DNA of 64,000 bases from Candidatus Omnitrophota bacterium (lineage in GTDB: Bacteria > Omnitrophota > Omnitrophia > Omnitrophales > JACROU01). Made by a program: the position numbers and the translations under genes. The notes beneath the pieces were generated by a model. The model saw nothing but the letters and a program-made list of their open reading frames with translations. It had not been told where the DNA came from and did not search any database. Location: positions 124,001 to 188,000 of the forward strand of contig JAJDCD010000008.1 in the NCBI GenBank assembly GCA_029261035.1, given 5' to 3'. Positions 53,973-64,000 of this stretch are shown piece after piece; the first letter of the stretch is position 1; every line of letters starts with the position of its first letter.

Positions 53973-54284
53973 TTATTTTTTAATTTTTAGGAATTTTACC
54001 TTAGAATAAACCCAAAGAATAACTACAAAAGTAATAAAAGAAAAGCCCATGAAGAAATCTTCTATCGGAATAGTCCCAATACGAAACCCTGATATAGCAT
54101 CTGATCCATAAAGAAATACGGGGCGTGAAGTAAGATAACCATTAACTATCAACTCTGCAAACATCATAACAGCAATAAAAATCAAAAACTTTAAATCCTT
54201 TAAAACATATGTCTTAAGAACTAAATCAAGAATAACAACAACAAGCACTGAGAGCAAGCCAAAGAGAGTATAACTAGGAATCAT
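53973..54284 (-). CDS. crtYd: Lycopene cyclase subunit, CrtYd-type
   Basis: 103 aa, three membrane segments. Heterodimeric lycopene cyclases consist of two such small proteins. The signature is NGYLTSRPVFLY then GFRIGTIPIEDFFMGFSFI, the second-half pattern (IPIED). It closes one psi end of lycopene into a beta ring together with CrtYc. It overlaps crtYc by 11 bp, is the last gene of the unit, and no terminator is visible in the short gap before the comEC promoter. Confidence 0.9.
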   Translation of the reverse strand: MIPSYTLFGLLSVLVVVILDLVLKTYVLKDLKFLIFIAVMMFAELIVNGYLTSRPVFLYGSDAISGFRIGTIPIEDFFMGFSFITFVVILWVYSKVKFLKIKK

Positions 54285-54603
54285 TTCGTTTCTCCCCTAG
54301 ACGCACTCTGAGTTGAATAACCTCATATGTAAATATAGAAATAAATCCCAGGAAAAGAAAAAATAGATACTCTTCAATAGGTAAACCCAATAGTTTTAAA
54401 CCCAATATATAATCTGGATTAAAACTCCAATGTCCTTGATGAGACGCAAAAATATCCCACAACAAATAAATTGTTGATGGCAATAAAATAGAAAACAACA
54501 TTGATTTCCAAAATCGATACAATTTCAGATCACGATGATTTGCAACAATAAGAGGTATGCTTATACAAAGTATTAAAACAATAAAATATAAATATTTAAT
54601 CAT
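54274..54603 (-). CDS. crtYc: Lycopene cyclase subunit, CrtYc-type
   Basis: 109 aa, three membrane segments. LWDIFASHQGHWSFNPDYILG followed by LLGLPIEEYLFFLFLG is the first-half signature (GLPIEE) of CrtYc/YdE-type cyclases. Start ATGA overlaps the cruF stop. In Myxococcus and Actinobacteria such pairs make gamma- or beta-carotene; with CruF also present a one-ring product is likely. Confidence 0.9.
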   Translation of the reverse strand: MIKYLYFIVLILCISIPLIVANHRDLKLYRFWKSMLFSILLPSTIYLLWDIFASHQGHWSFNPDYILGLKLLGLPIEEYLFFLFLGFISIFTYEVIQLRVRLGEKRNDS

Positions 54604-55346
54604 GAAACAGCCTGAGTTTTAATCTTTCTAATACAAACTATTGCCACAGAAATAAAAGCAAAGCTTAAAAAAGTAGGTAAATAAAAACCCTTCAATAAAA
54701 TACTCACACTAAACAAAAACCAAAGAAGAAAATAAACAACTCCAGGAACCCAGTCCAATTGATCCCAAGAGCGCTCCTCAGGAGTTTGAATAAAAAGCAA
54801 AAGACAGAAACCAAAAACAAACCAGCTTACATAGTTTGATTTAGGAATCACATTCCCCTCCCAGATCCAATAATTAAAAACAGATGTCGCAAATGGCTCT
54901 AATACAATATCAAAAGCCAAAACAAATATAGATGCAAAAAGCGCCAATAGAAGCGGAGAGGCTTTGCCCCTAAATAACTTTAAAACCAAACCATAAGAGC
55001 TAACTACAACCAAATACCACGCTAGGCCAATTAATATGGGGACACCATAGACAGAATAGCTCAAGGCATCTGTGTAAGTATATTGCCCAAAAGGGATTCC
55101 TGTATGCACTCCCAATAGCTCTATTCCAATAGCAGAAAGAACAATTAAAAAAAACTGAGAAAAAGCTCTAGACCAAGAAACGTTAAGCGCTGCCCATATA
55201 AAAATAAGTATAGAAAAGAGGATCAGTGAAACAGAAGACGTAAACGCCCATGTCTCTGGAAGCTTATCAAAAGCTACAAAGTAAAGACTGAATGGAAATA
55301 AAAAAATAGAGAGATAAGTTAAATATAAGCAAATTTTCTTAAGCAT
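54600..55346 (-). CDS. cruF: Carotenoid 1,2-hydratase of CruF family
   Basis: 248 aa, seven or eight membrane segments, DUF422-like. GVHTGIPFGQYTYTD, VPILIGLAWYLVVVSSY, FDIVLEPFATSVFNYWIWEG and the C-terminal PKSNYVSWFVFGFCLL match CruF, which adds water across the C1,2 double bond of a psi end (a tertiary hydroxyl). Overlaps the START-like gene by 8 bp and crtYc by 4 bp. Confidence 0.85.
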   Translation of the reverse strand: MLKKICLYLTYLSIFLFPFSLYFVAFDKLPETWAFTSSVSLILFSILIFIWAALNVSWSRAFSQFFLIVLSAIGIELLGVHTGIPFGQYTYTDALSYSVYGVPILIGLAWYLVVVSSYGLVLKLFRGKASPLLLALFASIFVLAFDIVLEPFATSVFNYWIWEGNVIPKSNYVSWFVFGFCLLLFIQTPEERSWDQLDWVPGVVYFLLWFLFSVSILLKGFYLPTFLSFAFISVAIVCIRKIKTQAVS

Positions 55347-55899
55347 TAACCGCTTCCAATTCTTCTTTTGAGTTTAGAATAAATTCATTTAACATTTTAT
55401 CCAACATCTCTTTAACGCGTTCACTCAAGAACTCTTCGCCCAATAAGGGGGCCATCCAATGAAATTTCAACCCATTAGAACGTGTGAATTTTAAATTCAT
55501 AGAAATATTTATTTGACTTTCATTATTCGGTTTAGGTTCTACTTTAATTTCACATCGCATAAAATCCTCTGATTCTTTAGGAGATGTGAATATCATATGA
55601 TTCGAATTTAAAACTTCTCTTTTAGAAATAAAGGTCCCTGTCATATCTCTAGCCATTGGCACAGGAATTTTTAAATCCCAAAGAAAATCCTCTCCCTTCA
55701 ATTGTTCGATACTCTCAATCCCTGGCAAGTTTCTAGAAATAAATTCAGGACTATTAAATGCCTGTAATTGATCCACGGAACGCGGCACTTCATATGTGAC
55801 AGAAGTATTCGCATTAACCACAAAATCTTTTGCATAGACACTCATAGGAATCAAACAAAAAAAACTAAAAAACAATAGACACCTTATTCCTCTAAACAT
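55339..55899 (-). CDS. Secreted START/SRPBCC-like protein
   Basis: 186 aa from the ATG at 55899 (MFRGIRCLLFFSFFC), AAGGAG 6 bases upstream; the ATG 15 bases earlier overlaps this site. A signal peptide (cut near YA-KD) leads to a domain with VTYEVPRSVDQLQAFNSPEFI, WDLKIPVPMARDMTGTFI and LKFTRSNGLKFHWMAPLLG, the alternation of strands and a last helix (EEFLSERVKEMLDKMLNEFI) expected from CoxG/START-like lipid-binding folds. It sits inside the carotenoid unit, so binding or transport of a carotenoid in the periplasm is a reasonable but untested guess. Confidence 0.55.
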   Translation of the reverse strand: MFRGIRCLLFFSFFCLIPMSVYAKDFVVNANTSVTYEVPRSVDQLQAFNSPEFISRNLPGIESIEQLKGEDFLWDLKIPVPMARDMTGTFISKREVLNSNHMIFTSPKESEDFMRCEIKVEPKPNNESQINISMNLKFTRSNGLKFHWMAPLLGEEFLSERVKEMLDKMLNEFILNSKEELEAVNA

Positions 55900-55913
55900 A
55901 ACATTCTCCTTCA

Positions 55914-56603
55914 TTAGTTAATCTTCAATGACCCAAAACTATCCACAATAGAAAACCGTGCAAACAACTCTTCCTTATACCAATTTTCATCTCGAGTTCT
56001 TTTAATAACTCTTTTATGATCTTTACTATTATAAGCAAACTCCATCAAAGACTCTTCATTGTCCCATACACTAAAAGTAGCCTGTCGAAACCACGGAATC
56101 TCCCCAAAACCAACAGAATGTCTCAGTCCTTTCATCGTCTCTAAGGAACGACTCACAGGCTCTACTTCGCTCCAAAATTGTGTCATACGACTCAAATGAA
56201 TCGTAGCACGTGTCAAAATAGCAATAGGCCCATCTCCTTGACCCATCTCACTCGCTAAAAACAGACCGTCTCCATCCCATTTTCCAGCAGAACGTGTCGG
56301 TTCTAAAGCAATCCATCCTAATTCTGTAGAACATTCTTCAAAGCGCTTATATATCCACGAGGTCTCTCTAAATCGCTCCCAATCCTCTTTTGACTCCCAT
56401 GTGGTAAACAAAACATACCGACTCCAATTTGGCTTCACACTAAACCCCAAACCACGCCCAGTGCCCCCCACCTTAGAAAACAAGAGCCCCTTAACCCGAC
56501 TCAACTCCAAAGGATCCAAACCCGCACGCACAAATGCCAAAGGAACAAACCTCTTAGGATACTTCACAACAACAAACACAGCAAAAGAACTCAATCTCGA
56601 CAT
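55914..56603 (-). CDS. crtA: Spheroidene monooxygenase-like carotenoid 2-ketolase CrtA
   Basis: 229 aa from the ATG at 56603 (MSRLSSFAVFVVVKYPKRF), with GAGG 7 bases upstream. GGTGRGLGFSVKPNWSRYVLF, then TRATIHLSRMTQFWSEVEPVS, then GEIPWFRQATFSVWDNEESL and RTRDENWYKEELFARFSIV give a close match to CrtA of purple bacteria, an oxygen-dependent haem enzyme that oxidises C-2 of the psi end. In purple bacteria it makes spheroidenone and is oxygen-linked. Its presence with CrtYc/Yd and CruF fits a keto end group on the open end. First gene of the second carotenoid unit. Confidence 0.88.
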   Translation of the reverse strand: MSRLSSFAVFVVVKYPKRFVPLAFVRAGLDPLELSRVKGLLFSKVGGTGRGLGFSVKPNWSRYVLFTTWESKEDWERFRETSWIYKRFEECSTELGWIALEPTRSAGKWDGDGLFLASEMGQGDGPIAILTRATIHLSRMTQFWSEVEPVSRSLETMKGLRHSVGFGEIPWFRQATFSVWDNEESLMEFAYNSKDHKRVIKRTRDENWYKEELFARFSIVDSFGSLKIN

Positions 56604-56732
56604 CAAACCGCCTCATTCGATATTATTAGACCCACCTATAAGACAATGGAAAAAGTAAATCCTAAAACAACTACTCCATCCCATCAAAGGCGTAATCCCA
56701 ATATTTCTAATAAATAGCAAAAACAAACAAGC

Positions 56733-56757
56733 ATTTCGTTATTCAAAATAACGAAAT
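56733..56757. promoter_or_regulatory. Perfect palindrome upstream of crtA, possible operator
   Basis: ATTTCGTTATT (56733-56743) and AATAACGAAAT (56747-56757) form an 11 bp perfect inverted repeat around CAA. It lies about 130 bp in front of crtA. Such length and symmetry suit a dimeric repressor site, but no regulator gene is in the window. Confidence 0.4.
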
Positions 56758-56770
56758 AACATTAAACCAA

Positions 56771-56804
56771 GGAAAGAAGAGCCCTCGATGGCGCTCTTCT
56801 TTCC
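56771..56804. repeat. 12 bp perfect inverted repeat upstream of crtA
   Basis: GGAAAGAAGAGC (56771-56782) pairs with GCTCTTCTTTCC (56793-56804), loop of 10. Neither strand has a proper T-run directly after the stem (minus continues TTGGTTTAAT), so it is weak as a terminator. Confidence 0.6.
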
Positions 56805-56835
56805 AACGCTCCACACTCCCATTTTACATTAAAGT

Positions 56836-56935
56836 CATAAAAAAGATCTTCCCGCCGCGAGTTCACAAAAGCGACAGGCACCTTAGGTGACGGTCACTTT
56901 TGTGCTGTCTGAGCGCCGGGAAGATCTTTTTTATG
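56836..56935. terminator. 100 bp palindrome overlapping the glycosyltransferase 3' end
   Basis: Outer arms 56836-56854 and 56917-56935 are a perfect 19 bp inverted repeat (CATAAAAAAGATCTTCCCG and its complement). Inside, 8 bp (CACAAAAG, 56864-56871, with 56897-56904) and 4 bp (CACC/GGTG at 56879-56889) continue the pairing. The right arm codes for the last residues of the glycosyltransferase and its stop codon. T-runs flank both sides, so it may terminate either strand; it also resembles REP-like mobile palindromes. Confidence 0.75.
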
Positions 56936-58063
56936 CCCAACCCCACTCAAATAAACCCTCCCCTTCCAAGAAGCCCCCCTCTTAAAAACAAATATTCTAA
57001 CAGAATTTAAAGCAATCACTAAAAACAGAATCATAGAAAATACATGAACAAAACAAGAAATAAGCCCTAACTTAAATCGAACCGCTAAAACAACCCTTAT
57101 AAAAATAGCCATCCCAACCATAATCACAGGAATAAAAATATCACCCCCCTTATAAACCCCTATCCCAATTTGAACATAAGGAAAAACAAAGAGAAAAAAA
57201 CAAAGCATCATAAAAGCAAATATCCCTGGCAAGGAAAAATTAAATCCCGGAAATAAATTTTTAGAAAAACCTTCAAATATCCCTGAAAAATCTTGATACA
57301 TACGACATTGAACCAAAGCGAACCCATCTTTTATTAATAATTTCGACTTTATCTCTTTAACTCTCCTTGCCAACCAAACATCCTCAACCAGCTGATCTCG
57401 CACAGCTAAATGCCCTCCAATTTCTTCATAAACAGCCTTTTCAAACAACATAAACTGTCCATTCCCCATAGACAAGCTTGGAGTTTTTAATTGCGTCACA
57501 AGCCCAAAAGGAAGAAATAAAAATTCCATAAAGTGGAGCATCGGTAAACACAAACGTTCCCACAAACTCCCCATTTTTATTTGTGTAATCAAAGTCAAAA
57601 GGCCCCCACGCTCTTCTTTTAGAGTTCTTACAGAAGCCTTTAAACTCCTTGGATGATGCTCCGTATCTGCATCTGTGAACAAAAGCAACTCCCCATGAGC
57701 CTCTAGAGAAAGTTGGTGACACGCATAACATTTTCCTAACCACCCTTCAGGAAGATGATCCCCAGAGATTAATCTTAACTTCTCTACCCCAGCTCCGACC
57801 CTATTCACGACCTCATAGGTTCTGTCTTCAGACCGATCATCATAAACTAAGATTTCAAAATTTGGATAATCTTGATTTATCACACTATTAAGACAACGCT
57901 CTATATTCTCTTCTTCATTTCTTGCGGGGATAAGGATAGAAACAAATGGGTAAATTTCTAACTCTTGTTTTAAACCTATTCTTTTAAGCGCGAATAGATT
58001 CCAAAGAAAAACAACAAAAAGACCCAATGAAATTGCTAATAATCCTAAATTAAAATAAATCAT
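56894..58063 (-). CDS. Carotenoid glycosyltransferase, GT2 family (CruC/CrtQ-like)
   Basis: 389 aa. N-terminal membrane anchor (about 1-25), GT-A domain with PFVSILIPARNEEENIERCL, ILVYDDRSEDRT, LLLFTDADTEHHPRSL and the acceptor block QLVEDVWLARRVKE, then three or four membrane segments (about 270-365). The layout equals CruC of green sulfur bacteria and CrtQ of Staphylococcus, which attach a sugar to a carotenoid hydroxyl at the membrane. The gene follows an acyltransferase by 6 bp. Its last 13 residues lie within the right arm of the 100 bp palindrome. Confidence 0.75.
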   Translation of the reverse strand: MIYFNLGLLAISLGLFVVFLWNLFALKRIGLKQELEIYPFVSILIPARNEEENIERCLNSVINQDYPNFEILVYDDRSEDRTYEVVNRVGAGVEKLRLISGDHLPEGWLGKCYACHQLSLEAHGELLLFTDADTEHHPRSLKASVRTLKEERGGLLTLITQIKMGSLWERLCLPMLHFMEFLFLPFGLVTQLKTPSLSMGNGQFMLFEKAVYEEIGGHLAVRDQLVEDVWLARRVKEIKSKLLIKDGFALVQCRMYQDFSGIFEGFSKNLFPGFNFSLPGIFAFMMLCFFLFVFPYVQIGIGVYKGGDIFIPVIMVGMAIFIRVVLAVRFKLGLISCFVHVFSMILFLVIALNSVRIFVFKRGASWKGRVYLSGVGHKKDLPGAQTAQK

Positions 58064-58069
58064 TCAAGT

Positions 58070-58813
58070 TTACCTTACCGAGTTTTGAGTTTTAGTACGA
58101 AATAAATCTACTTGAGAACTAATGGACTCTCTTCCTTTTTGAATTGTTATAAAATCTGAAAACTCTTTCTGAATCACAGCATCTCTTAATAGATCTAATT
58201 GAAAAATTAGTTTTTGATTCAGCTCTACATTTAATTCTTTCATATCTAAAAGAGAAGAATCTTCAATATATTGAACGGGTCCAAATTCTGTAAAAATCTC
58301 AGGTCGTTGCTCTTGAATAAATTCATAACGATGTGTCACTGGAACCAACTGAACTTTTCTTAATTTTTTTATGATATGAGTTACACCAGAAAAAAACTGA
58401 ATAGGCCTCGCATCATTTGGAGACATAACTCCTTGAGGATATATCCAGAGTGCATTTCTCCTTCCTTTAAGTTCTTCTACAGCATATTGAATGGATTGCA
58501 TTGCTTTTCTGCTATCACCGCGATCGACACTAAAAGCACCAATCCATCGAAAGAAAGCATATTTTCTTAGCTGTTTAATATCCATCATCAAGATCGTATC
58601 CAATTCAAACAACTTGTACGTCATATAAAAACAAAGAAGTCCATCCCACCAATTACTATGATTAGCATAAAAAATAATTGGAATATTTTTATCTAAACCT
58701 TTTAAATGCTCTAAACCTCGAACACGATGCGCATAGAAAAGTTTTGCAAGCGTACGTTGTGTCCACCATAAAAAGAATTTTTCAACAATAGGTAATTTAT
58801 TCGTTTTAATCAT
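58070..58813 (-). CDS. 1-acylglycerol-phosphate-type acyltransferase (CruD-like?)
   Basis: 247 aa PlsC-fold. Catalytic HX4D is in ANHSNWWDGLL, with FSVDRGDSRKAMQSI and WIYPQGVMSPND as motifs II and III. A short hydrophobic stretch near residue 10 suggests peripheral membrane contact. Next to a carotenoid glycosyltransferase and a CrtD-like desaturase, it is best read as the enzyme that acylates the sugar of a carotenoid glycoside, as CruD does. A general lysophospholipid acyltransferase cannot be excluded. Confidence 0.78.
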   Translation of the reverse strand: MIKTNKLPIVEKFFLWWTQRTLAKLFYAHRVRGLEHLKGLDKNIPIIFYANHSNWWDGLLCFYMTYKLFELDTILMMDIKQLRKYAFFRWIGAFSVDRGDSRKAMQSIQYAVEELKGRRNALWIYPQGVMSPNDARPIQFFSGVTHIIKKLRKVQLVPVTHRYEFIQEQRPEIFTEFGPVQYIEDSSLLDMKELNVELNQKLIFQLDLLRDAVIQKEFSDFITIQKGRESISSQVDLFRTKTQNSVR

Positions 58814-58820
58814 AAAACCC

Positions 58821-60326
58821 TCATGCGGATACTTTTAAGTCTTCTTGAACCAAATTTGAAACCATTTTAGCAGAAAGTAAGACGAGAGGAATACCTCCTC
58901 CAGGATGAGTACTTCCCCCGACAAAATAAAGCCCTTCAACCTCTTCACATCGATTAGAAGGTCTATTAAACGCAGACCATGGACTGTTCGAGGAAAGCCC
59001 ATATAAAGAACCTCTATAGGCCCCATAATTTTTTTCAAATTCTAACGGAGTCCATATTTTTTCGTAACAGATATTACTATTTAACCCGCTCAAACCGGCT
59101 ATTTCTAATTGATGAACAATCAAGTCTCTATACTTATACTTTTCTACGTCCCAATCAATCTTAGAACCTTCGCTTATGGAAGGAACGTTCACCAACACAA
59201 ACAAATTACTAGTCCCATCAGGAGCTAATGTAGCATCACTTTTCTTAGAGATACTCACATAAATTGTCGGCTCCGGGGCAGGAATCTTTTGCTCAAAAAG
59301 AGCCTCAAACTCTTCCTTATAATCTTTAGAGAAGAAAATATTATGGTGCGACAAATTCGGATATTCTTTTTTTACTCCAAGTTGCAAAACAAATCCGGAA
59401 GTGGACATATCATTGCTCTTCTCTAACTCTTTCAGGTTTTTATTTAATTGGGAAGAGGGAATTAATCTCTTATAAACTTGTAACGCATCTGTGTTTGCTA
59501 TTATCTTCTCTGCTTCCAAAACCGATCCATCTACTAATTCAACCCCTCTAACGGCTCCTTCTTCTACTAAAATCTCTTTAACCACTTGTTCTTTCCGGAT
59601 CTCTACACCAAGCTCCACTGCAAACTGTTCCAAAACCTCAACCAATTTGTACATTCCTCCTTTAGGATACCAACCGCCCATCGTATGTTCAATATAAGGG
59701 ATGATGGAAAAAGTTGCCGGAGTTTTATAAGGTGAAGAGCCATTATAAGTCGCAAAACGATTAAATACCTGTTTAAGTCTCTCATCTTTAAATGTGCTAG
59801 AAACCATTTGGCTTAAAGTTCGAAATGGATCCAACTTCCAAAATTGAAGAAGTGATTTCCAATGAGTAAGAAAAAACTTTGGGCCCCAGCTTCCATTACT
59901 CTCAAATAAAAATGGTTTTGAAGCAATAGAGTAAACCCGCTTCCCATGATTTAAAATTTTCTTAAAAGATTGCACCTCATCCGGGTTAAAAGCTTCCAGA
60001 TAAGAATATGTTTTATCCATATTATTAGAAATATCCAGCTGACTGCCATCTGAAAAAAAATAACGACACAGTGGATCGACTGGCATCAGATCTAAATAGT
60101 CTTCTATTCGTTTTCCTAAATTTTCAAACAAATCTTCCAAGACAAAAGGCATCGTTAATAAAGTTGGCCCACAATCAAAGGTAAAACCACCCTCTTTGAT
60201 TTGACTTAACTTCCCACCCAAATATCCGTTTTTTTCTAATAAAGTTACCTTATAGCCTGCGTGAGATAAATAAAGGCTACTAACAAGCCCTCCCAACCCA
60301 CCACCAACAATAAGCACTTTATTCAT
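58821..60326 (-). CDS. CrtI-family carotenoid desaturase, CrtD-like
   Basis: 501 aa. FAD loop VLIVGGGLGGLVSSLYLSHAG at the start, GGKLSQIKEGGFTFDCGPTLL, GGMYKLVEVLEQFAVELGVEI, and the C-terminal FNRPSNRCEEVEGLYFVGGSTHPGGGIPLVL. This ending with NRPSNR and GGSTHPGGGIP is typical of CrtD (C-3,4 desaturases acting after hydration) more than of CrtI. It would introduce the 3',4' double bond on the open end. It overlaps crtZ by 8 bp. The desaturase encoded at the right edge is the better candidate for CrtI proper. Confidence 0.82.
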   Translation of the reverse strand: MNKVLIVGGGLGGLVSSLYLSHAGYKVTLLEKNGYLGGKLSQIKEGGFTFDCGPTLLTMPFVLEDLFENLGKRIEDYLDLMPVDPLCRYFFSDGSQLDISNNMDKTYSYLEAFNPDEVQSFKKILNHGKRVYSIASKPFLFESNGSWGPKFFLTHWKSLLQFWKLDPFRTLSQMVSSTFKDERLKQVFNRFATYNGSSPYKTPATFSIIPYIEHTMGGWYPKGGMYKLVEVLEQFAVELGVEIRKEQVVKEILVEEGAVRGVELVDGSVLEAEKIIANTDALQVYKRLIPSSQLNKNLKELEKSNDMSTSGFVLQLGVKKEYPNLSHHNIFFSKDYKEEFEALFEQKIPAPEPTIYVSISKKSDATLAPDGTSNLFVLVNVPSISEGSKIDWDVEKYKYRDLIVHQLEIAGLSGLNSNICYEKIWTPLEFEKNYGAYRGSLYGLSSNSPWSAFNRPSNRCEEVEGLYFVGGSTHPGGGIPLVLLSAKMVSNLVQEDLKVSA

Positions 60327-60834
60327 GAGATGAGTTTTTTAAGGTTAGTTGATGATAACGTTTTTTTAATGCAGAAGGAACAATCGGAAACAACAATCCA
60401 TAAGGTTCTCCACCAAATAAATGATGAATACGATGAGAATGATAATGCCAAGAGAAAATATTTTTCTTTATACGAAAAAATGGGATTCTTCCATGAACCA
60501 CAATATCATGAATTAAAAAGTAAAGAAGCCCATATGCTGTAATACCAAAACCGAAAGAAATTAAATATTTCAAACTCGGAACAAAAATACCTAAAGCAAT
60601 AACAGACATAGTTATTAAAGCTGAAATTCCTGGATAAAAATCATTCAGCTCCCACCCATTGCTCTTAGGAGCAAAATTATGAATCAGCTTTTTCTGGCCT
60701 TCTCTTCGATTATGACTCGAATGATGACTGCGATGTAAAGGAACGCCAAATCCATGGAAGATGTAGCGATGAGACAAATAGGTGATAGGCTCCATAACAA
60801 CTAAACCTAAAAAGAACAAATAGACCTCAACCAT
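60319..60834 (-). CDS. crtZ: Beta-carotene hydroxylase CrtZ
   Basis: 171 aa membrane di-iron hydroxylase. All four histidine clusters are visible: HRYIFHGFGVPLHRSHHSSH, FLIHDIVVHGRIP and HYHSHRIHHLFGG, with NDFYPGI between. It adds the 3-hydroxyl to a beta ring. Three or four membrane segments. Start directly abuts the crtE stop; it overlaps the CrtD-like gene by 8 bp. Confidence 0.93.
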   Translation of the reverse strand: MVEVYLFFLGLVVMEPITYLSHRYIFHGFGVPLHRSHHSSHNRREGQKKLIHNFAPKSNGWELNDFYPGISALITMSVIALGIFVPSLKYLISFGFGITAYGLLYFLIHDIVVHGRIPFFRIKKNIFSWHYHSHRIHHLFGGEPYGLLFPIVPSALKKRYHQLTLKNSSHE

Positions 60835-61716
60835 TTAAGATCTCCTATTCATTAGATACTGAACAAATCCTTTTAGATTATCCTTAGCTTCAGAAGACTG
60901 AATCTGTTGCAAACACTGAATTGCTTCTGACAAGTATTCCTTAACCTTTTTCTCAGCAACATCAATCTTAGCCATTTCTCCATTAACTCCCAAAGTCCCT
61001 ACCCAGGTCGTTTTGTTGTTTTTCTCATCCAAACTAGTATCTTTACCTGTTTCTTGACTACAACCCACCAAATCAAGCAAATCATCTTGGATCTGAAAAG
61101 CAAAACCTAAGGACCGTCCGAAAGAACCAAACAAGTCGACATCTTCCTCAGGAGATCCTCCTATAATTGCTCCTGATTTTGCTGCAAAATAAATAAGGGA
61201 GGCCGTTTTCTTTTCAATAACTTCAAGAAGTGCTTCTGGGGTTAAAACTTTACTGTCGTTGACCCACTCTTCCAAAGCCTGGCCTTCACAAAGCTCTTTA
61301 TACGTCTGATTCATTAAATGCAGCACCGAAACATTATACGGCTCCTTCAGTCGAAACATTTCTTCATAAGCTAAAGAAACCAAGAAGTCTCCGCACAAAA
61401 GCCCCATCTTATCTCCATAAGCAGCATGCACTGTAGGCTGCCCTCTTCTCATCGAAGCAGAGTCCATCATATCATCATGAATCAGTGAAGCCGTATGCAG
61501 CAACTCTATTGCTACTGCCGCAGGAAGAGCTTCTGAAACATCGCCTCCTACAGCTTCAGAAGAAAGAAGGGTAATAATAGGACGAACACGTTTCCCTTGC
61601 TTTAACAAACTCTCCAAAGGTTCTTTCATTGGACTGGATCCTAATGATTCCGTAATAACATTCAGTCGAGTCTGAACTAATTCTCTATAACTATCTAAAA
61701 TGTCTGGGCAATTCAT
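60835..61716 (-). CDS. crtE: Geranylgeranyl diphosphate synthase
   Basis: 293 aa polyprenyl synthase. GKRVRPIITLLSSEA, first aspartate-rich motif in SLIHDDMMDSASMRRGQPT, second in GFAFQIQDDLLDLVG, and KKTASLIYFAAKSGAI. Makes C20 diphosphate for phytoene from IPP and shorter chains. Chain length is inferred from context (next to crtB); a C15 product is not excluded from sequence alone. Confidence 0.92.
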   Translation of the reverse strand: MNCPDILDSYRELVQTRLNVITESLGSSPMKEPLESLLKQGKRVRPIITLLSSEAVGGDVSEALPAAVAIELLHTASLIHDDMMDSASMRRGQPTVHAAYGDKMGLLCGDFLVSLAYEEMFRLKEPYNVSVLHLMNQTYKELCEGQALEEWVNDSKVLTPEALLEVIEKKTASLIYFAAKSGAIIGGSPEEDVDLFGSFGRSLGFAFQIQDDLLDLVGCSQETGKDTSLDEKNNKTTWVGTLGVNGEMAKIDVAEKKVKEYLSEAIQCLQQIQSSEAKDNLKGFVQYLMNRRS

Positions 61717-61742
61717 ATCTATGGATTACACTCCTATAAACT

Positions 61743-62624
61743 TTATGCTCTTTTGCTTTTAAAACAGAGTTGAACTAATAATAATACTTTTTTCCAAAAA
61801 GAGACATAAACTCTTCCGGACAACACATCATAGTTTTTCGCCTCAATCTCATCTAAAATCTTTTCATACAAACCACTCATAACACGAACACAAAAACGTG
61901 AGCTGACTCCATTCAACATTCCAATCCCTTTATCTGCTTCTCTATAAAACTGCCGTGCTCTTTGAATTTGAAATTTTCCAAAAGGAATAAATTTACTCGA
62001 TACATGTTTATGAGCAAACTCAGAAGCATCAACTCCGTAAGAACTCAATTCTTCTTGAGGTAAGTAGATACGTCCCATATCATAGTCTTCTTTTACGTCC
62101 CTTAAAATATTAGTTAACTGCATTGCTTTACCCAGTGAAATTGCATACGGATAAGCCTCTTTAGACGAAACTCCAAAAACATGACTCATAATCAATCCTA
62201 CAACAGAGGCAACTCTATAACAATACAAATCAAGCTCTTCCCACGTATTATACCGATGCTGGGTCAAATCCATCTCAACACCCTTAATCAAATCAACCCA
62301 GTATTCCTTTGGTATTTTATGAGAAATTACAACTTCTTGAAAAAGACGAAAGGGAGATTGCTTCTCAAGAATATCAGAATATACAGAATCCAATATTGCA
62401 TACAAAGCTGCTGCATATTTTTTCTTTTCTTCTAAGCTCGCTGTCTCTTCATCTAAAAGATCATCCGCATAACGACAAAAACTGTAAATCACATAAGCGG
62501 CCTTCCTCTTCTTAGACGACAGCATAAAGGATGCGAAATAAAAGGTTTTCGCGTGATGCCTCGTATATTTCGCAGAAGCTTTCATTAAATCCATCTCAGG
62601 ATAATCCGAAAGAAAAGGCTTCAT
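61743..62624 (-). CDS. crtB: Phytoene synthase
   Basis: 293 aa. Head-to-head condensation of two GGPP to phytoene. KTFYFASFMLSSKKRKAAYV, first aspartate motif in CRYADDLLDEE, VASVVGLIMSHVFG and the second in LTNILRDVKEDYDMGRIYLP. Starts within the crtI stop (ATGA). Confidence 0.95.
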   Translation of the reverse strand: MKPFLSDYPEMDLMKASAKYTRHHAKTFYFASFMLSSKKRKAAYVIYSFCRYADDLLDEETASLEEKKKYAAALYAILDSVYSDILEKQSPFRLFQEVVISHKIPKEYWVDLIKGVEMDLTQHRYNTWEELDLYCYRVASVVGLIMSHVFGVSSKEAYPYAISLGKAMQLTNILRDVKEDYDMGRIYLPQEELSSYGVDASEFAHKHVSSKFIPFGKFQIQRARQFYREADKGIGMLNGVSSRFCVRVMSGLYEKILDEIEAKNYDVLSGRVYVSFWKKVLLLVQLCFKSKRA

Positions 62625-64000
62625 AAATTAAAATCTTCCACGATACACTTATCCGTCGCCTCAGATGACAACAAGACGCCAGGCACGCCACCTCCAGGAT
62701 GAGTACCCGCCCCAACAAAATAGAGACGCTCGATATCTTCACTGCGATTATGAGGTCTAAAATAAGCGCTTTGCATCAATCGGGGTTCAATAGCAAAAGC
62801 ATTCCCTAAATGAGAGTTCAGTTTATTCTTAAAATCATCCGGTGTAAATACTTCCATCACCTCTATATTATCCTTCAGACCTTCCATCCCCATCTTTTCT
62901 TCTAAACGATCCAAAACTTTATTTGTAAAAGGCTCTATTTCTTTTTTCCAATCAATTCCACTTTTTAGATTAGGAACCGGAATCAACACATACAAACTTT
63001 CGCAACCCTTAGGAGCCATATTAGAATCACTTTTTGTTGGGGCATGTAAGTACATAGAAAACTCCTCAGGAATAATCTGCCGATCAAAAATATCTTTAAC
63101 TAATTCTTTATATTCTGAACCCAAAACAATCGTATGATGTTTCAGCTGAGGAAATTGTTTCTTAACACCCAAATAGAGCAAAACACAGCTCATGGTCATG
63201 TGAATTTTATCAATTCGTTTATCTGTCCACTTTTTTCTCCATTTAGAATCAATCAGATTCTTGTATACAATAGGAATATCAGCATTACACACAACACAAT
63301 CCGCCTTTAAAACTTCGTTTTCTAGCTCAATTCCTCGAGCAACTCCATCTTCAACGACAATTTTCTTTACTTCCGTATGAGTCCTTACCGTCCCCCCTAT
63401 TTCTTTAAAAACAGATTCCATCGCTTTTACTAAACTATACATTCCCCCTTTCGCAAACCACACTCCTCCTACTTTTTCAAGATAAGGAATCATCACATAG
63501 ACGCTAGGAGCCTTCCAAGGAGAACCTCCAATAAATAGCGGATGAAATGAAAACATAAACCGATGGAACTCATGTTTGAAATACTGAGCTGTAAAGGAAT
63601 AAACAGGTAGGAAAGCTTTCAACTTGATTGCCTGTGGAGCAAACTTAAGCATAGAACCCCAACTCATAAAAGGCTGCGCTCCTAAACCATCCGTAATAAT
63701 GGCATCATACACCCCTTTAATATCCTTAAAAAAAGCATCGTAACGATCTGCGTCTCTTTGACTATAACAAGCCATTTGGGATTTAATATTTTCAGCATTC
63801 CCATTGTAATCAATGTACTTACCATCACTAAAGTAGATTCTGTAATAAGGATCTAAGGACTCTAACTCAACATAATCTGAGAGTTTTTTTCCAGCCAAAG
63901 AAAAAAGCCGTTCTATAATAAAAGGAGCTGTAATTAAAGAAGGCCCCATATCAAAGGTGTAGCCTTCTTTCTTAAGTTGATAAGCCCGACCTCCAACCTG
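62621..64000 (-). CDS. crtI: Phytoene desaturase CrtI, 5' end cut by window
   Basis: 459 residues are readable; the frame is open to the right edge and the missing 5' part should hold the FAD loop. Near the edge QVGGRAYQLKKEGYTFDMGPS is the GGRA/FDxGPS block. Further on: SPWKAPSVYVMIPYLEKVGG, WFAKGGMYSLVKAMESVF, and the C-terminal YFRPHNRSEDIERLYFVGAG with THPGGGVPGVLLSSEA, the CrtI ending. Makes lycopene (or neurosporene) from phytoene. First gene of the carotenoid cluster visible here; more may lie beyond 64000. Confidence 0.93.
   Translation of the reverse strand, partial: QVGGRAYQLKKEGYTFDMGPSLITAPFIIERLFSLAGKKLSDYVELESLDPYYRIYFSDGKYIDYNGNAENIKSQMACYSQRDADRYDAFFKDIKGVYDAIITDGLGAQPFMSWGSMLKFAPQAIKLKAFLPVYSFTAQYFKHEFHRFMFSFHPLFIGGSPWKAPSVYVMIPYLEKVGGVWFAKGGMYSLVKAMESVFKEIGGTVRTHTEVKKIVVEDGVARGIELENEVLKADCVVCNADIPIVYKNLIDSKWRKKWTDKRIDKIHMTMSCVLLYLGVKKQFPQLKHHTIVLGSEYKELVKDIFDRQIIPEEFSMYLHAPTKSDSNMAPKGCESLYVLIPVPNLKSGIDWKKEIEPFTNKVLDRLEEKMGMEGLKDNIEVMEVFTPDDFKNKLNSHLGNAFAIEPRLMQSAYFRPHNRSEDIERLYFVGAGTHPGGGVPGVLLSSEATDKCIVEDFNL

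Follow-up and report, generated by a model that had tools for sequence, protein, structure and literature searches.

We report a compact block of carotenoid biosynthesis genes in a 64,000-nucleotide stretch of DNA (hereafter the window; positions 124,001 to 188,000 of contig JAJDCD010000008.1, C24:124001-188000 in our numbering) from the 2.70-Mb genome of an Omnitrophota bacterium (94.8% complete, 1.9% contaminated). It is reasonably probable that this block is a complete operon, perhaps read as two transcripts, for the acylated glycoside of a myxol-type monocyclic C40 xanthophyll that acts as a membrane-anchored antioxidant and stiffener. The block spans positions 53973-64000 of the window and holds 12 intact genes, every one on the minus strand, in the transcription order crtI, crtB, crtE, crtZ, crtD, cruD, cruC, crtA, a gene for an unknown 191-aa protein, cruF and two genes of the CrtY type. 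The original prediction, made from the letters and open reading frames alone, had named these carotenoid genes as adjacent and co-directional; all of them are present, and their families and motifs bear out the naming, but the gene for the 191-aa exported protein had been missed.

In the pathway that we propose, CrtE, CrtB and CrtI would together yield lycopene, on which the two-subunit cyclase would close one beta ring, while CruF would hydrate the open end to give a 1'-hydroxyl group and CrtD would introduce the 3',4' double bond. Hydroxylation of C-2' by CrtA and of ring C-3 by CrtZ would then give myxol, to whose 1'-hydroxyl CruC would attach a sugar that CruD in turn would acylate. We infer the order of the substrates, the sugar and the acyl chain. 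The single ring, the 3-hydroxyl, the 1'-hydroxyl, the 3',4' double bond, the glycosylation and the acylation had all been part of the original prediction, and the CruC/CruD and CrtD relationships and the conserved motifs described below lend them support at the level of sequence.

The glycosyltransferase (GT) and the acyltransferase (AT) had been assigned to the CruC and CruD types, an assignment that the original prediction proposed to judge by phylogeny. We recognised green sulfur bacteria by the FMO protein (PF02327), found in 95 of the 395 genomes sampled from their phylum, and searched ten of them. Each of the ten Chlorobia has one standout relative of the window GT, which is its top GT match (40-45% identity, E 1e-86 to 6e-100), and nine of the ten have, as the top match, one clear relative of the window AT (30-36%). 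The Chlorobia GT relatives outscore those of every other group tried, and for the AT the Chlorobia relatives score on a par with that of Chloroflexota. In genome G711, which we take to be Chlorobaculum tepidum, the relatives lie at 1,885,077-1,886,225 (GT, 43%) and 911,310-912,038 (AT, 35%), where CT1987 (cruC) and CT0967 (cruD) would be expected from their gene numbers. A careful GT tree places the window GT and the ten Chlorobia GTs on one side of a branch, and the AT tree groups the window AT with those of Chlorobia, Chloroflexota and Mucilaginibacter (87/90), apart from other PlsC-like matches. The catalytic motifs are kept in both proteins (NHxxxxD, as NHSNWWD, in the AT and DxD in the GT). 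Adjoining genes for CrtD, AT, GT and CruF are also found in two Chloroflexota loci (L161 and L163), in agreement with the 1'-hydroxyl glycosyltransferase and acyltransferase assigned in Herpetosiphon and Chloroflexus (PMC3368417, PMC4155588), and related CruF-AT-GT loci are present in Niallia and Cytobacillus. In a Planococcus cluster of related type, a GT was demonstrated to add glucose to the tertiary hydroxyl that CruF introduces (PMC8502411), and in C. tepidum the glucoside laurate of OH-gamma-carotene is made with CrtC, CruC and CruD (PMC6166724). These relationships support the view that the two window enzymes are true relatives of CruC and CruD.

Two points weigh against the proposed reading: the branch that joins the window GT to its Chlorobia relatives has a support of only 77/23, and the Thermus relatives of CruC and CruD are assigned to glycosides of the ring 3-hydroxyl (PMC4021367). 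Because of the latter, the site of the sugar is uncertain. We hold it unlikely that the sugar is carried not on the 1'-hydroxyl but on the ring 3-hydroxyl, as in thermozeaxanthin, or on the 2'-hydroxyl, as in myxoxanthophyll. The former site is favoured by a related AT-GT pair of Thermus thermophilus (GT 35%) that lies in a cluster assigned to thermozeaxanthin, and the latter by a match of the window GT to the NCBIfam model of the 2'-O-glycosyltransferase CruG; yet that match reaches 114 bits, far under the cut-off of 600, the Thermus GT falls with Deinococcus in a different, starred group, on which ground we reject a Thermus-type ring glycosylation, and the closest relatives of the window GT are Chlorobia enzymes of the CruC type and CruF-linked GTs. 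Identification of the GT itself as CruG or as HpnB was likewise rejected, both scores being below the cut-off (179 bits against 379 for HpnB) and the HpnB-type reference lying on a different branch. Outside this setting, blocks of the type crtI-crtI-AT-GT were seen on alphaproteobacterial plasmids (L200, L201, L203 and L204), in two of which (L201 and L203) a sulfotransferase gene follows, pointing to possible sulfated carotenoid glycoside esters.

The crtD product scores 373 bits against the model NF042421, compared with 172 bits for the crtI product; being below the cut-off of 500, the score does not amount to an equivalog call. In a quick tree of CrtI and CrtD proteins, with support from the Shimodaira-Hasegawa-like approximate likelihood ratio test (SH-aLRT) only, it groups with CruF-linked desaturases as sister to the CrtDs of the two Chloroflexota loci (91); its best identity is 47%, to Chloroflexota genome G523. 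The cruF product matches PF04240 with 111 bits against a cut-off of 25, and both cyclase proteins match TIGR03462 and retain an intact PxE(E/D) motif (PIEE and PIED). CrtZ narrowly misses the PF04116 threshold (29.2, with 31 required); it has the histidine motifs HRYIFH, HRSHH, HDIVVH and HYHSH and resembles CrtZ of Bacteroidota. From these sequences one ring, one hydrated end and one 3',4' double bond are expected. In Nonlabens a cyclase capable of making beta-carotene yields mainly the monocyclic product when CruF is present (PMC11855829); by analogy with this capability, the window cluster may also make some zeaxanthin besides its main product.

The product of crtA bears on the one part of the predicted structure that we would change. 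The original prediction had a 2'-oxo group, which is doubtful, and we think it quite probable that the product carries a 2'-hydroxyl group instead, although the CrtA tree leaves this unsettled. The hydroxyl is favoured because the CrtA of Nonlabens, whose cluster shares the core enzymes, is a 2'-hydroxylase, converting 1'-hydroxytorulene into deoxymyxol when the genes are tested in E. coli (PMC11855829), and because the window sequence leans toward Bacteroidota, with 38-46% identity to the nearest enzymes of that phylum against 33-36% to the purple-type ketolases. At eight sites that consistently differ between the ketolases of Rhodobacterales and the CruF-linked CrtAs of Bacteroidota, the window CrtA has the state of the latter at six and that of the ketolases at none; these states are common to most other CrtAs, so all that the columns establish is that the enzyme is no derived ketolase. 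A CrtA acting as a ketolase on the same scaffold, which would set the 2'-oxo group in conjugation with the 3',4' double bond as at the end of spheroidenone, is somewhat unlikely. It would accord with the sole NCBIfam match of the protein, to the spheroidene monooxygenase model NF045923, though this falls below the cut-off (178 bits against 300). The tree, from whose sample the Nonlabens enzyme is absent, speaks against the hydroxylase: grouping the window CrtA and the Rhodobacterales ketolases in one clade is not rejected (approximately unbiased (AU) test, p 0.15), grouping it with the sampled CruF-linked Bacteroidota CrtAs is rejected (p 0.0025), and the window CrtA sits on a long branch. A search of viral contigs for CrtA returned no confirmed relative. 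Most of the crtA genes found in Bacteroidota (that of L013 and others) are solitary: within 10 kb of them we recognised no further carotenoid gene.

Between crtA and cruF lies the gene for the 191-aa protein, which has a signal-like N-terminal stretch and a faint likeness to the CoxG/SRPBCC family (PF06240, E 0.049, below the cut-off). Among 145 relatives only one faint match was obtained for it, a type II secretion system (T2SS) M/PilN-type protein, and no relatives were found in plasmids; an AlphaFold2 (AF2) model made without homologues was uninformative (pLDDT 36). It is a long shot that this protein is an exported carrier of the START/SRPBCC fold that would bind the acyl glycoside within the periplasm for delivery to the outer membrane. 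If so, it would be a dedicated carotenoid-trafficking protein within a bacterial biosynthetic operon.

The cluster appears to belong to the genome in which it was found. Its third-position GC (0.22-0.38) is near that of the flanks (0.24-0.33), GC and GC skew run continuously from the cluster into the flanks, and the contig that carries it is 466 kb long; because of the third-position GC and the length of the contig, contamination is an unlikely source. Contamination from a genome of Bacteroidota or Chloroflexota, introduced at binning or assembly, would fit the presence of CrtA in just one of the 384 genomes in the phylum sample, the source genome itself, as well as the lack of another genome of the same family or order among the CrtI-matching genomes listed from that sample. 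Given the continuity with the flanks, the long contig and the lack of any relative above 47% identity to a full-length gene in our searches, which also identified no donor for the operon, we regard such an origin as very improbable. The window CrtI falls in a 100* clade with CrtI of Deinococcus, Thermus, Roseobacter and Chloroflexota, whereas most of the sampled CrtI-type enzymes from other genomes of the phylum form a separate 100* clade. With CrtA in a single phylum genome and CrtI outside the clade that holds most of the phylum's sampled enzymes, the operon looks to have been separately acquired and to be well settled in the genome. As the original prediction had supposed, we found no pathway of such make-up described for Omnitrophota in the open literature, although CrtI-type desaturases occur in 49 of the 384 genomes. 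In another genome of the phylum (G200), locus L172 combines genes for CrtD, a GT, CruF and CrtI with one for a DUF2141 protein that looks exported; in Palleronia (L203), too, a neighbour of crtI carries the DUF2141 annotation.

As to the cellular role, protection of the membrane is the default assumption: the pigment would probably be anchored there and serve as antioxidant and stiffener. In Thermomicrobium, a membrane-adapting role has been proposed for glycosylated and acylated carotenoids. The original prediction had also offered a role as light-harvesting antenna of a xanthorhodopsin, as with salinixanthin in Salinibacter, and this finds encouragement in the close structural relationship of the product to salinixanthin, an established antenna (PMC5822342), and in the rhodopsin of Chloroflexota genome G523, which has a CrtD-CruD-CruC-CruF locus. 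However, no microbial rhodopsin (PF01036) was found in the 95%-complete source genome by a search that was positive in both G523 and Robiginitalea, and salinixanthin has a 4-keto ring for which we recognised no enzyme: no third CrtI/CrtO-type gene stands among the strong matches in the source genome, and no CrtW was found among its six proteins of the FA_desaturase family, as the original prediction had stated for the cluster. An antenna role is thus scarcely to be expected. Five of the six proteins read by eye as acyl desaturases from their histidine boxes; the sixth (L214) and one of the five (L209) were scanned and matched no CrtW model, L214 having no NCBIfam match at all. The five acyl desaturase-like proteins (L209-L213), with the usual histidine boxes, suggest that the organism uses oxygen and adjusts the fluidity of its membranes.

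The features of the block are collected in the table. Its genes are tightly packed, the junctions other than that between cruC and crtA measuring -11 to +26 bp. The start of crtI lies about 110 bp past the window edge, the full-length product having 496 aa; for crtA, the ATG at 56603 is the better placement of the start; and the crtE product also matches NCBIfam prenyl-diphosphate-synthase models. The block may comprise two transcripts with their boundary in the 290-bp cruC-crtA gap, because this gap has inverted repeats and a terminator-like site, in which the pattern scans nonetheless found it no richer than chance. At 56867-56901 an imperfect palindrome (AAAAGTGACCGTCACCTAAGGTGCCTGTCGCTTTT) overlaps the cruC stop codon; it has the look of a repetitive extragenic palindromic (REP) element and occurs in one copy in the window.

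Table. Features of the carotenoid block, with assigned or predicted functions (positions are those of the window)
Feature	Position	Strand	Basis
crtI, phytoene desaturase (C40 type)	62621..64000, start outside window at ~C24:188111	-	TIGR02734 469 bits
crtB, phytoene synthase	61743..62624	-	PF00494 255 bits, E 9e-76
crtE, geranylgeranyl diphosphate synthase (chain length inferred)	60835..61716	-	PF00348 209 bits, E 8e-62
crtZ, beta-ring 3-hydroxylase	60319..60834	-	histidine motifs; Robiginitalea CrtZ 32%/65 bits
crtD, 1'-hydroxycarotenoid 3',4'-desaturase	58821..60326	-	NF042421 373 bits; CrtD tree
cruD, carotenoid glycoside acyltransferase (PlsC-type)	58070..58813	-	Chlorobia/Chloroflexota AT relatives
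cruC, carotenoid 1'-hydroxyl glycosyltransferase (GT2)	56894..58063	-	Chlorobia GT relatives
cruC-crtA gap, inverted repeats and terminator-like site	56607..56893	-	pattern scans
crtA family, 2'-monooxygenase, probably 2'-hydroxylase	55914..56603	-	NF045923 178 bits, E 1.5e-52; Bacteroidota relatives
191-aa protein, signal-like N-terminus	55339..55914	-	PF06240 E 0.049, below cut-off
cruF, carotenoid 1',2'-hydratase	54600..55346	-	PF04240 111 bits, E 8e-32; TIGR03460 88 bits
CrtYc/CrtYd-type lycopene beta-cyclase subunit	54274..54603	-	TIGR03462 64 bits, PF18916, PIEE
CrtYc/CrtYd-type lycopene beta-cyclase subunit	53973..54284	-	TIGR03462 57 bits, PF18916, PIED

The enzymes and the product class are known elsewhere, but within its lineage the gene set is new and stands apart. 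The CruC/CruD pathway of C. tepidum, reportedly described by Maresca and Bryant in 2006, differs in having CrtC instead of CruF, a ring that is aromatic or unsubstituted, and GT and AT genes that lie far apart, and to our knowledge that organism has neither CrtA nor CrtZ; what it has in common with the window is a 1'-hydroxycarotenoid glucoside ester (PMC6166724). The myxol cluster of Nonlabens spongiae and Flavobacterium sp. P99-3 shares crtI, crtB, crtZ, crtD, cruF, a cyclase gene and a hydroxylating crtA (PMC11855829), and, insertions aside, the order crtI-crtB-crtZ-crtD-cruF-crtY is kept between the two. It differs in lacking CruC and CruD, in having crtE elsewhere in the genome, a single cyclase gene and crtA on the opposite strand, and, judged via Robiginitalea, in a CrtI of a different clade. 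With regard to the product, a close parallel is offered by salinixanthin and its 4-deoxo form in Salinibacter ruber and Rhodothermus marinus, which like the predicted compound are monocyclic 1'-O-acylglucosides with a 2'-hydroxyl; peak 2 of R. marinus (C59H90O8, C61H94O8) has by our comparison the formula of an acyl deoxymyxol hexoside, that is, the predicted product minus the 3-hydroxyl (PMC5822342). These organisms differ in a 4-keto ring made by CrtO and the lack of a 3-hydroxyl, in that homologues of CrtA, CruF and CrtD were not found in R. marinus, and in the xanthorhodopsin of Salinibacter (PMC5822342). Mucilaginibacter conchicola MYSH2 (G384, with L013) comes close to the window's enzyme set, with CrtA, CrtB, CrtD, CrtZ, CruF, a cyclase, a CrtI-type desaturase, a GT and two ATs in one genome, but spread over at least three places and with a more distant GT (34%) and AT (31%). 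The CrtD-CruD-CruC-CruF loci of Chloroflexota (G523 and G563) supply, in linkage, the nearest CrtD and near relatives of CruC (42%) and CruD (40%), but no adjoining CrtA or CrtZ; crtI is unlinked there, and G523 has a rhodopsin.

Against this background, what is notable about the operon is its compactness as a single locus and the isolation of its crtA within the phylum sample. It does not change general understanding. It brings together two chemistries, that of CruC/CruD, known from green sulfur bacteria and Chloroflexota, and that of myxol, known from flavobacteria, and it is compact enough to be expressed whole. As predicted, it would provide a mostly uncultured phylum with a complete one-locus pathway whose product is a carotenoid glycoside, acylated and hydroxylated at C-3. 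Since CrtA and CrtZ belong to oxygen-dependent families, their presence implies that this bacterium lives with oxygen, and probably with light or oxidative stress.

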